Shown here: piece by piece, positions 10,161 through 45,771 of the stretch
Layout: each line of letters starts with the position of its first letter
How positions within the stretch are numbered: the first letter of the stretch is position 1
NCBI GenBank assembly: GCA_024220505.1
Contig: JAKZZE010000008.1
Span: 1,116,001 to 1,180,000 of the forward strand
DNA from: Rhizopus arrhizus
Lineage: Eukaryota; Mucoromycota; Mucoromycetes; Mucorales; Rhizopodaceae
DNA: 64,000 bases
Reading direction: 5' to 3'
Notes under the pieces: model-generated
The model's database searches: none
The model's input: only the letters and a program-made list of their open reading frames with translations
What the model was told of the DNA's origin: nothing
Made by a program: the position numbers and the translations under genes

Positions 10161-11703
10161 ATGTATTCAAGTGCAGTATTTGCAAAGGCCACTTTTGAAG
10201 AAATCTTAGATGATCTTTCTAGGTAAAAAAAAAGTAACAATTCAAAAGGGGTTTTCTAATTCCTGTGCATAGTCGATTTATTATTAACGTACCAGAAGCA
10301 GAGCTTGCTTCTGTTGAGCGAATTTGTTTTCAAGTAGAACAAGCACACTGGTTTTATGAAGATTTCATTCGAGAAATTAAGCCAGATTTGCCTTCTTTTC
10401 AGCTTAAAACCTTTTCTGCAAGGAATATCCTTTTTTTTTTTACTTCTAATCCTTTTTATGTAGAAAAAACACATGTATTTATTATTCTTAACCTTTTATA
10501 ATTACTTTTCAAGCATTGTCCACTTTTACATCAATGGGCCCATGAACATGAACGTGCTTATGCAGACTTTATGCAATATCGTTTTCGTATCCCTGTTTGT
10601 GGTGCTATCATTCTTAACTCGAATTTAGATAAATGTGTACTTGTCAAAGGATGGAGTTCAAAATCAGGATGGGGATTTCCTAAAGGAAAAATCAATCAAG
10701 AAGAAGAATACGATTGTTGTGCCATTCGAGAAGTACTGGAAGAGACAGGCTATGATATTGGACCATTACTAAAAAAGACAGATTACATCGAATTGACAAT
10801 GAGAGAACAACGCATTAGATTATATATCATTCAAGGTGTACCTGAAGACACACAATTTATTCCACGTACAAGAAAAGAAATCAGTGTAAGTTTATTGACA
10901 TCATCACCACCATAATTCACATTTAAAAATAGCAAATTTCGTGGATCAAATTGGAGGATTTGCCTACATATAAAACATCTGAGCCTCGTCACGGAAATGC
11001 AGCTTTGAATTATGTAAAATCAGGTTCTTATCGATTTTATATGGTTGTTCCCTTTGTTAGGTACACAGATATATACTAATGGTTGGATCTGTATTCATCC
11101 TACTATAATAGCAAATTAAAGACTTTTGTAAATCAACGAAGAAAGCAACTTCGCAAAGCAAATGAAAAAGCGGCTAAGGTGGTTTCTTCTCCTCGAAAGC
11201 CAATACAACAACAGCAACCGATGACACCCTCCTCTCCTTCACCACCCTCCTCAGATTCTTCTTCGGATGCTTTAAAATCGCTTCTTGGTGTCATGTCCGA
11301 GAAAAGGATGCCTCACGGCTTCCCCACTGCATCTCCCGCTGTTTCACAACCTCATCCTAATCATCAACCACCACCTTTGAGTGGCAACAACTTATTGCAA
11401 GAAATCTTTTCATCTGCTAGCACTACTCCTCAACAACCACAACAAAACATGCCATTTTCATTCACGATTCATGGTGCAGAAAAATCTACAGTTGAAAAGG
11501 GGTCTATGATGGACGAGCTGTTTAAAGGAAATAGTAACCAGCAACCCAATCATTTGAAACCATCCACAAGACAGGAAACCGTGCGTAGAAATTCTCTCTT
11601 GGATGCCTTGCAAGGAAACAACAGCAGAACCGAAAGTAACTTTGACCCAATACAAGCCCTCTTTCAAGGAAATGTTCATACGTATTCCCCTCGAAACCAA
11701 TAA
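10161..11703 (+). CDS. DCP2: mRNA decapping enzyme subunit 2
   Basis: Nudix hydrolase that removes the m7G cap during 5'-3' mRNA decay in the cytoplasm and P-bodies. Five exons give 437 residues: 10161-10222, 10273-10424, 10506-10885, 10933-11060 and 11112-11703. The N-terminal regulatory domain holds RFIINVPEAELASVERICF and EQAHWFYEDFIRE. The Nudix box G-x5-E-x7-REVLEETGY is intact in exon 3. Box B runs to VVPFVSKLKTFVNQRRK. The C-terminal tail (about 190 residues) is Pro/Gln/Ser-rich and low-complexity, as usual for fungal DCP2. The second intron (10425-10505) is an AT-AC U12-type intron; removing it joins LKTFSAR to IFKHCPLLHQW, matching the family. Introns 1, 3 and 4 are ordinary GT-AG. 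Confidence 0.95.
10425..10505 (+). other. U12-type AT-AC intron in DCP2
   Basis: The 81-nt intron starts ATATCCTTTT, a perfect match to the U12 5' splice-site consensus. It ends AC and carries TTCTTAAC at 10485-10492, with the branch A about 13-14 nt before the 3' end. These are the three diagnostic features of a minor-spliceosome intron. With these borders the flanking codons join as AGG A|TT TTC AAG CAT. This gives SARIFKHCP without a gap, whereas a GT-AG alternative inserts a poor Phe-rich stretch. Confidence 0.88.
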
Positions 11704-34256: not shown

Positions 34257-35334
34257 ACCAAGCTTATTACCATCATAGACATTTTATAAATGAAAACCCC
34301 AGTCAGACCCAACAACCAATTCAATTTTAAAAAACTATTTTCCACAACAAGTCCTACATAAATCCTGATGTCAAGTCTGATTTATCAAATCGATGTACTG
34401 CTTGTCTGTATTATTCTCCAATGAAAAGAAATCAGAGGAGTTAGAAATAATACTAATGCTTAGGTGACAATATTCAGTAGTCAACAAGTTTGTTGGAAAC
34501 TTGGATATTGAAGAATAGTGTGGTTGTCTAAGCTTTTAGGGCAAGCCTCCTTATTCACTTTTCCTAATGTAGTTGAAGAATGTTGGTCAAAGAACCCATC
34601 TTCAGCTAGCTGTGTATTTGTCCTATCCCTGCTTTTTTTTAAATATCATACAGCTTTATCTATGTTAAATGATCAAATGCAAGAAGTAATAAAAAAAAGT
34701 ATAATTTGGTAATACACAGTAGGTATACATATAAAGTTTGATGAATATCCTTGAAATTAATATTTATGATGTTTAATGATACACATTCTCTCTCTTCCTA
34801 CTTATTACTCTATCAAAATCATCATCATTCATGGATAACCGTTTTTTACTTTGATTAATTACCATTCTTCATAAATATTTAAAATTGAAAGTATCCAAAA
34901 TCCATTGTGAATTTTAGTAGATCTTCAATTATAAAAGGGATTGCTACTTTACTTAATTCATAGAAAATATACAATCCATTATTGGATAATATACTGATAT
35001 AAAATATTACCGTTCTGCCTATACAAGAATTTAATACAAGTATACAAGCAGTGATTTTGTTATATAACCCACCAATTACTGGATAACAAAGTGCTCCTTT
35101 CATGCCATTTACATCGATACTAGATTTTGAGAATATGTTGATACACATTAAATTTTTACAGGCTGTATAATGACTATTAGCTTCTGTCTCATACCTCACT
35201 TTGCCAAAATCTAAGCTCAAACCATTTAATAAAGTTGCAGTGATATCTGATTGTTTCTTATTCAAATTCAGATTTCGTTTTCCTGTCACTGTTATCAATC
35301 CAGTACTGACATGTCTTTGACCTCTGTCACTTGT
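33714..35334. other. Decayed transposon-rich intergenic region
   Basis: On the minus strand 33918-34020 reads FDPCVGAILEEPDFKDKS then AEECDRLIIAAHSRVVRY, a protein-like piece possibly from a LINE first ORF. A 47-nt T run (34207-34253) followed by actacc has the look of a minus-strand poly(A) tail. The rest is AT-rich with no recognised feature. Confidence 0.4.
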
Positions 35335-35388
35335 TAAAATTAGAACGATACAGAGAAGATTAGCATAGCTCCTGCACAAGGATGACAC
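35335..35388 (+). ncRNA. U6 snRNA-derived fragment (not a functional gene)
   Basis: 54 nt match the core of spliceosomal U6 RNA, from the TAAAATT before the invariant ACAGAGA box (in AACGATACAGAGAAGATTAG) through CAAGGATGACAC. Compared with the general eukaryotic U6 sequence I see only four differences, all G-to-A or C-to-T. The 5' stem-loop and the 3' end of U6 are absent, so this is a retrotransposed piece. It directly abuts the LINE sequence that follows. Confidence 0.85.
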
Positions 35389-35949
35389 TACCAACCCAAT
35401 ACTAACATGATTCTTTCCAATGCTTATCAGTCTCCTCATGTGGCGGAGTCTATATTCTCTCCACCCAATAGCAGAGCTAGATACAAGTACTATATTCAAG
35501 TAGTGACAGCAGCAAATAGTGTCCTTGTTGCATAATTATATTGAGTATCCTCATATTGGCGATGATTCGACCTTAAGCACCTTACATACAAAAGTATTCA
35601 GAGCGTCTAGAACGAAAAGTACATATTTGATCGATATTTTGAACTGCAGACAACTATACTGACCAACAGAGTGTGATGTTACTCAAGGAACAACATCCCA
35701 ATATTTATGCATGTGTTCCTTTGAATGACGGTCCCCGCCGTTATCTTGAAGTTTACGTATCTAAAGAACATGATAGTAATGATGTTGTCAATAATGGTTT
35801 GGTTTTTCCCTTGTACTGCCCTTGAGGACTCGGCTAAAATTGTTACTTTTAAATAATTTGCCCCTTTTGCCAAAGAGCAAAGTCTTGACTGGATTACAAA
35901 AGTGCCTCACAGTATTTGGCATTATCATGGATGTAAGAATTAATACAGG

Positions 35950-44019: not shown

Positions 44020-44374
44020 TCCACATACAATTATACCCTATCTACATTTTTTATTGATCCTTTTTCATCGTAAATTACATGGTACATTTTATCTATAAAT
44101 CTTATACCATTTTTACTACAACGCATTATGATACATTCCATGCGCTCATCATTGACTTCTATTATTAAGAAACGGCCCCACCCTTTCATTCTCTCTTATT
44201 TACTGATAAACTGTATGCAGACAAGAACTACTTTGTGTATATATCCTTTGTTTTTTTTTTTTTTATTAACCAAAAATTCTAAGAACGCAAAAGAAGACTA
44301 CAATATGAAAGGTGTACTGATTTTTTAGACCCCTTTCTTTGTTCTCTGTTTTCGATGAATGATTTCAATTGATT
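44020..44374. other. Convergent intergenic space
   Basis: AT-rich 3' flanks of two convergent genes. It contains a 14-nt T run and no gene. Confidence 0.4.
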
Positions 44375-44958
44375 TTAAATCTATTAAAAAAAAAGAGGGA
44401 GGCAGTGAGTCAACAGAATCATGTTGAAGATAAGTCCAACTTACCTCATCAATATCGAAATCAAATTCAACTTCGTCATCTTCTTCACCACCAAAGTTGG
44501 CGTCTGCTTCATTGATCTTGGCCGTATCAGGCAATTCACCGTAAGCCTTCAACTGTCTGGCTTCATCAGGATTGTATCGCTGAATGACATCGGCTTTTTC
44601 GTCTTGGAATTCACGCAGTGACAATAACACAATGTCACCTTGGTTGATCCACACCTTCTTTCTTAATTTACCTCGAATAAGTGCAAGACGTTTTACACCA
44701 TCGAAACATTGTGCTTCCACACGACCGTTACCCAACATCTTGACAACTTGAGCATATTCTAAAGAAAACGTTCAGTCTTTTTTTTTTTTTCCAAGCATCC
44801 CTTGTTACCTTGGCCTTCTTCTTTAAACACAAGTTCACGTTTATCGTTTTCGGTATCGTTCTTTCCTCTTCTTCTGGATTTACCACCCTTTTTTCACTGT
44901 CAGTTTACTTGTAAATTGAATTAAAAAAAAGAATTACCTTTCCCTTGTTTTTAACCAT
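44375..44958 (-). CDS. EIF1A: Translation initiation factor eIF1A
   Basis: eIF1A promotes scanning and start-codon selection on the 40S ribosome. Four exons give 139 residues: 44938-44958, 44809-44887, 44445-44758 and 44375-44380. The basic N-terminal tail ([18 protein letters not shown]) precedes an OB fold with [40 protein letters not shown] and [20 protein letters not shown]. The acidic C-terminal tail ends DIDEI. The final coding exon is only six bases (ATT TAA), needed to give the conserved DIDEI end instead of intron readthrough. Start codons of this gene and SNRNP35 are 140 bp apart, divergent. Confidence 0.97.
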
Positions 44959-45098: not shown

Positions 45099-45771
45099 AT
45101 GTGGTACTCGAAGGAATATGATCCTATCCAAGTAGGTTCTATGGATGGAAACGATACAAAGCCTCATGACAAGGCGATCAAGCGAGCGATGACTTGTTGC
45201 TGTAAGTTTTAGATAGCCAACCCATACTCTCTCTTTTTTTAACCAGAAAAGAAAAAAGATAGACCACCTCGATGTTTAAAGACCGATCCACACCGTACGC
45301 TCTTTATAGGCAGATTGAACTATGACACAACCGAGGCCAGACTGAGAGACTACTTTGATAAATTTGGAGCGTTGACGGATGTGTCGATCACGAGAAACAA
45401 TGGTAACTTTTGCACGTCTATTTTCAATTGACTTATACCTTGCAGTGACCGGCCTGTCTGAAGGCTATGGCTTTATCACCTTCCGATCCGAATCATCCGC
45501 ACGCCATGCCTACCATGAAGCCCATCGGATGACGATCGATGACCACAAGATCCTGGTAGACTATGAGCGAGGTAGGACAATGAAAGGTTGGAGACCGAGA
45601 AGACTCGGTGGTGGGTACGGTGGTAAAAAGGAAAGTGGTCAATTGAGATTTGGTACAAGAGACAGACCGTTTCGTCAAAGCACCCACAGACCCTCAGATG
45701 ACAAGCGCTCCGATCATTGGAAACCCATTTTAAAAAAATCTTCTCACCATTCCCCCCCTGTCAATAAATAA
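45099..45771 (+). CDS. SNRNP35: U11/U12 snRNP 35-kDa protein (minor spliceosome)
   Basis: Component of the U11/U12 di-snRNP that recognises U12-type introns; not part of the major spliceosome. Three exons give 190 residues: 45099-45201, 45259-45402 and 45446-45771. Diagnostic blocks in order: KEYDPIQVGSMDGNDTKPHD, the single RRM with RTLFIGRLNYDTTEARLRDY (RNP2) and EGYGFITFRSE (RNP1), then DDHKILVDYERGRTMKGW and RPRRLGGGYGGKKESGQLRF, closing GTRDRPFR. The stretch after the RRM is specific to U11/U12-35K and distinguishes it from U1-70K. Exon 2 uses the acceptor aaaaaag at 45258; the nearer ccag gives a stop. The C-terminal Arg-rich tail is shorter than in animals. Confidence 0.93.

Follow-up and report, generated by a model that had tools for sequence, protein, structure and literature searches.

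A probable SNRNP35 orthologue in a Mucorales-like genome that appears to keep a minor spliceosome

Does the short gene at 45099-45771 encode U11/U12-35K (SNRNP35) of the minor spliceosome or its close paralogue U1-70K, and does the genome around it still hold the rest of a minor spliceosome? The gene lies in a window of 64,000 bases, by which we mean the whole stretch of DNA analysed (C40:1116001-1180000 of a 50.26-Mb assembly in 41 contigs). U1-70K (SNRNP70) holds the place in the major spliceosome that 35K holds in the minor one. It has an RRM followed by a RRLGGGLGG block, as 35K does; here the two are separate genes. In human 35K, the RRM and the GG-rich block bind U11, which helps the U11/U12 di-snRNP to engage U12-type introns.

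Exon joining and translation gave a gene of three exons with the following parts:

45099..45201, + strand: SNRNP35 exon 1, with the N-terminal YDPIQ..GSxDG motif, in phase 1 at its 3' end (orthologue alignment)
45202..45258, + strand: SNRNP35 intron 1, U2-type, GTAAGT...AG, with the nearer CAG at 45244-45246 skipped
45259..45402, + strand: SNRNP35 exon 2, first part of the RRM
45403..45445, + strand: SNRNP35 intron 2, U2-type, GTAACT...CAG
45446..45771, + strand: SNRNP35 exon 3, with the end of the RRM, the RRLGGGYGGKKESGQLRFG block, a short tail and the stop

The original prediction described a 190-residue protein with a characteristic motif, one RRM and a near-invariant block, and all of these are present: the 190-aa product carries YDPIQVGSMDGND and RRLGGGYGGKKESGQLRF, and its single RRM matches Pfam RRM_1 with 63.8 bits over residues 49-118. 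Both introns of the gene themselves look U2-type, not U12-type. Use of the CAG at 45246 as the acceptor of intron 1, 12 bases upstream of the AG at 45258, would keep the frame but creates a stop codon at the junction. Most aligned orthologues have Y(R/K/Q/H)PP at the exon 1/2 junction, without four extra codons, and the model ending at 45258 reads YRPP. Because of the in-frame stop and this agreement with the orthologues, we take the AG at 45258 to be the acceptor in use. Since the CAG leads to a junction stop, alternative splicing within 45202-45258 could switch the protein off.

When the protein was compared with all PDB sequences, human U11/U12-35K was the top match (8r7n_C, 183.7 bits, E 3.5e-53, query residues 3-165), with an alignment that spans both the N-terminal and the KKESGQLRFG stretches. 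The human protein (8r7n chain C, also 8y6o and 9gbw) has in common with ours the YDP..GS.DG..PHD motif, the single RRM and the RRLGGG.GGKKESGQLRFG.RDRPFR block. Across an alignment of 17 35K sequences, which left U1-70K out, W2, Y7, P9, G13, G17, H23 and K144-G152 were invariant (G147 nearly so). In a protein database of 5.8 billion sequences, 128 of 162 candidates fell at E<=1e-20; among the 120 matches listed, '35kDa (U11/U12)' names occur in Mucorales (a 35K name in at least eight entries), Mortierella, oomycetes and animals, and the list also covers Neocallimastix, Polychytrium and Syncephalis. The E value of the human match and the 128 homologues together exclude a chance resemblance to 35K.

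An alternative is that the gene encodes a U1-70K that has diverged, or some other RRM protein. Its closest paralogue, U1-70K, shares the RRM and the RRLGGG block and gave five best PDB scores of 108.4, 98.1, 95.7, 95.5 and 94.2 bits, the first of which sums two domains (best single domain 95.1). These matches were confined to residues 38-159, however, while 35K scored far higher over a longer stretch. The genome also has two U1-70K-like genes of its own, separate from SNRNP35, at C20:268194-268445 and C15:728110-728358, which read RRLGGGLGGREQ and RRLGGKLGGRET, respectively, in place of KKESGQLRFG. Neither that stretch nor the 35K N-terminal motif was present in U1-70K, whether in the pairwise alignments or in these two genes. 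The reverse comparison, made with the C20 copy, had U1-70K as its top match, at 57.7 bits, with 35K reaching 37.6. By these pairwise scores, the reciprocal check that had been proposed against U1-70K was passed and a U1-70K identity is ruled out; we regard the reading as a divergent U1-70K or other RRM protein as exceedingly improbable. The predicted SNRNP35 identity is thereby upheld: the gene is almost certainly the Mucorales orthologue of SNRNP35. By homology, its RRM and the GG-rich block that follows are predicted to bind U11 snRNA, and the protein would help the U11/U12 di-snRNP to engage U12-type introns, one of which is the AT-AC intron in DCP2 described below; we infer that the gene is expressed and that splicing is active here. 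A search of the genome with the 35K protein recovered its own three exons, with next matches of at most 38.3 bits that include the C20 and C15 U1-70K-like genes, and one 35K locus was found. U1-70K, by comparison, appears to be duplicated (C20 and C15).

The same window had been predicted to hold a U12 intron in DCP2, and we located it as follows:

10283..10424, + strand: DCP2 upstream coding exon, Pfam DCP2 box A with 98.2 bits (10283 is not a mapped exon 5' end)
10425..10505, + strand: DCP2 AT-AC U12-type intron, phase 1, ATATCCTTTT ... TTATTCTTAAC ... TTAC (ATATCC...TTAC)
10506..10885, + strand: DCP2 downstream coding exon (joined-exon alignment, Pfam)

The joined exons align without a gap over the junction to S. 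pombe Dcp2 (229 bits), in agreement with the prediction. Further introns were sought across the genome with the pattern TATCCTT, a gap of 10-40 and CCTTRAY, which gave 97 matches compared with 55 for the reversed pattern; it misses introns built like that of DCP2, whose gap is longer and in which TTCTT stands in place of CCTT. We read the flanks of 90 of these 97 matches, which amount to 88 distinct sequences; in 13 of them, an intron-like join is bordered on either side by at least 20 open codons. The filter is imperfect: L045 got through it in an incorrect phase, and among the 75 matches below it there may be real introns next to short exons. Two of those 75, L012 and L022, were looked at closely and are described below. 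Three of the 13 were accepted (L043, L044 and L045), two were rejected (L021 and L096), and eight were neither accepted nor rejected (L024, L026, L029, L048, L051, L056, L071 and L077).

Two of the accepted introns lie in genes that could be named. L043 is LSM12, with Pfam LSM12_LSM at 35.8 bits across the AT-AC junction, and L045 is VPS11, with PEP5_VPS11_N at 97.5 bits across its junction; for the VPS11 piece the PDB comparison gave propeller-repeat matches only, and its identity was settled by Pfam. L044 is probably an AT-AC intron in an unnamed gene, where the support comes from exon 2: this exon is conserved in three metagenome proteins, two of which extend past its start and share nothing there with exon 1. 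All four introns (DCP2, LSM12, VPS11 and L044) are AT-AC and in phase 1. Joined in silico, the exons of DCP2, LSM12 and VPS11 restore conserved proteins, whereas an intron left in place carries an in-frame stop in DCP2 and VPS11 and shifts the frame of LSM12 by 65 bases.

Among the rejected loci, the L096 motif lies within the coding sequence of what we take to be a P450 reductase. At L021 the motif codes for Tyr-Pro, residues that a Sporodiniella relative has at the same place, and a GTAAGC 24 bases further on looks like the start of the real intron. L012 is antisense of a long reading frame, and L022 has no coding on either flank.

We then turned to the other parts of the minor spliceosome. 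With Rfam models, U11 was found at C4:1437201-1437350 on the - strand (75.7 bits, cut-off 39), starting AAAAAGGGC, and U6atac at C2:739349-739481 on the + strand (65.3 bits, cut-off 33), where eight other matches had at most 20.5 bits. A U12 candidate (L001, C38:157147-157379, - strand) scored 38.8 bits, under the Rfam gathering score of 53. The candidate aligns well over its first ~55 bases, which hold UGCCU, AAUGAGUAAGGA and the first stem-loop, and the core GAGUAAGGA is kept. Its 3' half is unreliable, because the alignment there needs an insertion of ~80 bases and the fold is no better than shuffles (z -0.15); a CUACUUU loop in the alignment was dropped on the same grounds. The UUGCC of U12 and the GGCAA of U6atac are able to pair. 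In 14 bacterial and archaeal control genomes, none of the U12, U11 and U6atac models gave a match over its cut-off; matches of any kind occurred in 0 genomes for U12, in 1 for U11 and in 8 for U6atac (the latter two at E<=1). We conclude that U12 is very probably present in the assembly. Of the proteins proposed as a check, U11/U12-25K was recovered in two exons at C3:262596-262888 (- strand), both over the cut-off for PF18036 (45.0 and 27.5 bits, cut-off 22.8), with human 25K as the best PDB match (47.8 bits) and an exon join that is partly guessed.

U4atac was the exception: of the four snRNAs proposed as a check, U11 and U6atac were found over cut-off and U12, with its core kept, below it, and U4atac was not detected. 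The refuting case that had been named, an assembly lacking every U12-type snRNA, thus did not arise. The Rfam model gave no match at E<=1 among the best 48 of 1735 genome candidates, and three complement-based patterns run over the genome returned only the antisense of U6atac and one stretch that we judged implausible. As a positive control, major U4 gave three hits over cut-off; the two weaker of four U4 matches were considered as U4atac and proved U4-like on inspection. A diverged U4atac could have been missed, because only the best candidates were scored. The non-detection raises the question of whether U4atac is divergent, unassembled or truly replaced.

It also bears on whether SNRNP35 might be a relic or a moonlighting protein, kept while minor splicing decays. 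Such decay would fit four failed searches for U4atac in a genome where U4 is readily found, the sub-threshold score of U12, and the report that Lichtheimia likewise has no detected U4atac and an atrophied U12 stem III, as far as the available part of that paper goes (PMC4133162). Against it, AT-AC introns in three conserved genes have kept their 5' sites and branch sites intact, and the stops and the frameshift described above would follow if these introns were left unspliced. U11, U6atac and the core of U12 are well conserved, and U12 and the branch sites match each other, as set out below. Moreover, the same portion of the Lichtheimia paper gives one U4atac copy for other basal fungi, which counts against a lineage-wide loss (PMC4133162). 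Decay is very unlikely on this evidence. The prediction of a working minor spliceosome is instead supported by U11, U6atac, the U12 candidate, 25K and the AT-AC introns of DCP2, LSM12 and VPS11, all at the level of sequence.

A U6 snRNA match was also seen within the window at 35308-35416 (+ strand, 72.5 bits, cut-off 44). Its ACAGAGA box is intact and no run of four T occurs in the following 64 bases; it is possibly a pseudogene or a variant copy.

The U12 candidate differs from the consensus in the region that pairs with branch sites, reading GUAAGGAUAA instead of GUAAGGAAAA (the Rfam consensus there is GUaAGGAAAA). The four branch sites, TTATTCTTAAC in DCP2, ATATCCTTAAC in LSM12, TTATCCTTGAC in VPS11 and TTATCCTTAAC in L044, share the form TAT[C/T]CTT[A/G]AC. 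The metazoan consensus is TTTCCTTAAC, and where it has T all four have A, opposite the changed U of U12. Duplexes of the four sites (in the same order) with the native U12 had calculated energies of -9.3, -11.5, -9.5 and -13.7 kcal/mol, compared with -5.0, -9.2, -6.2 and -9.4 kcal/mol with a consensus version, so that the native U12 was better in every case. For a metazoan-like branch site the order was reversed (-10.3 kcal/mol with native U12, -13.2 with the consensus version). A genome search for the consensus U12 core returned one match with 3 mismatches, compared with 54 for the reversed pattern, a poor yield that fits the changed base in U12.

How often an A would be met there by chance was estimated from 99 XTYCTTRAC sites in any context, in which X was A in 29, T in 32, C in 20 and G in 18; this background includes the four introns and loci chosen by a similar motif. 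By these frequencies, four A of four would arise with a probability of ~0.7%, for a sample of four introns in which L044 is half supported and L043-L045 were first chosen partly for their branch sites. The later scan of the 88 pattern sequences made no use of the tested base. Five of the eight remaining candidates have TCCTT, with A at the tested base in L024, L029 and L048, G in L051 and T in L056. Of the loci rejected as U12 introns, L012 and L022 have T there, as does L021, an apparent counter-example until it proved to be no U12 intron.

From this small and partly selected sample, a compensatory change between U12 and the branch-site A is possible. The fuller reading is that U12 and the branch sites of the few minor introns left co-evolved by one base pair, U12 going from GUAAGGAAAA to GUAAGGAUAA and the sites from TTTCCTTRAC to TAT[C/T]CTTRAC, with the minor spliceosome retuned as a set, which may run without a recognisable U4atac; we put this forward tentatively, at slightly less than an even chance. 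If true, an snRNA and its targets would here have undergone a compensatory change in nature, something presumably possible only when few minor introns are left, and the fungus would offer a simple system in which to study how a splicing code changes. Searches of the open-licence literature, not specific to the exact change, found no description of it. A transformed minor spliceosome is reportedly the subject of a paper on Physarum.

Minor splicing is already on record for early-branching fungi, according to the parts of these papers available. Minor snRNAs and U12 introns were reported for Rhizopus oryzae and Phycomyces, with intron counts that depend on the method: 3 or 4 in the former, 17 or 20 in the latter (PMC2846911). 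Rhizophagus irregularis has 205 minor introns, with SNRNP35, 25K, 20K, 65K and all four minor snRNAs (PMC10639083); it shares with the present genome SNRNP35, 25K, U11, U6atac, very probably U12, and U12-type introns, and differs in having U4atac, which was not found here (PMC10639083, available part). Its intron consensus features are described there as closely resembling the animal and plant ones, whereas the branch site here is TATCCTTAAC, matched by U12 (PMC10639083). Four of five AT-AC spliceosome RNAs were reported for Lichtheimia; this genome has U11, U6atac and very probably U12 in common with Lichtheimia and other basal fungi, and an undetected U4atac in common with Lichtheimia, as far as the accessible section states (PMC4133162). 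Minor-spliceosome proteins are listed in PMC11039992, in the portion available. Going by these portions, nothing here is new in kind, minor splicing having been published for Rhizopus, Phycomyces, Lichtheimia and Rhizophagus (PMC2846911, PMC4133162, PMC10639083): SNRNP35 is unremarkable here, a single-copy gene in a lineage whose retention of minor splicing was known before, and with it the tally of Mucorales-like genomes that retain minor splicing rises by one. The points worth following are the pairing of U12 with the branch site and the undetected U4atac.

The C-terminal tail, which the original prediction called shortened, is short only by one standard. It is shorter than that of human SNRNP35 (a 246-aa chain, against 190 aa here), but nothing special among relatives, of which the 18 read span 135-330 aa (P0011 and P0116 look partial). 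Rhizopus 35K proteins have 189-190 aa and that of Phycomyces blakesleeanus 161 aa. The nearest named matches, the SNRNP35 proteins of R. delemar (P0001, 190 aa, 67% identity) and R. microsporus (P0002, 189 aa, 69%), aligned over 92% of the query, have the same short tail and diverge only in sequence. No identical entry occurred among the matches listed, where the closest by identity was the partial P0011 (82% over 68%).

As for the neighbours of SNRNP35, a 478-aa reading frame downstream gave no Pfam match at E<=0.001. Upstream lies a divergent eIF1A gene (window 44325-44958, - strand; Pfam eIF-1a, 83.2 bits), its start codon ~140 bases from that of SNRNP35.
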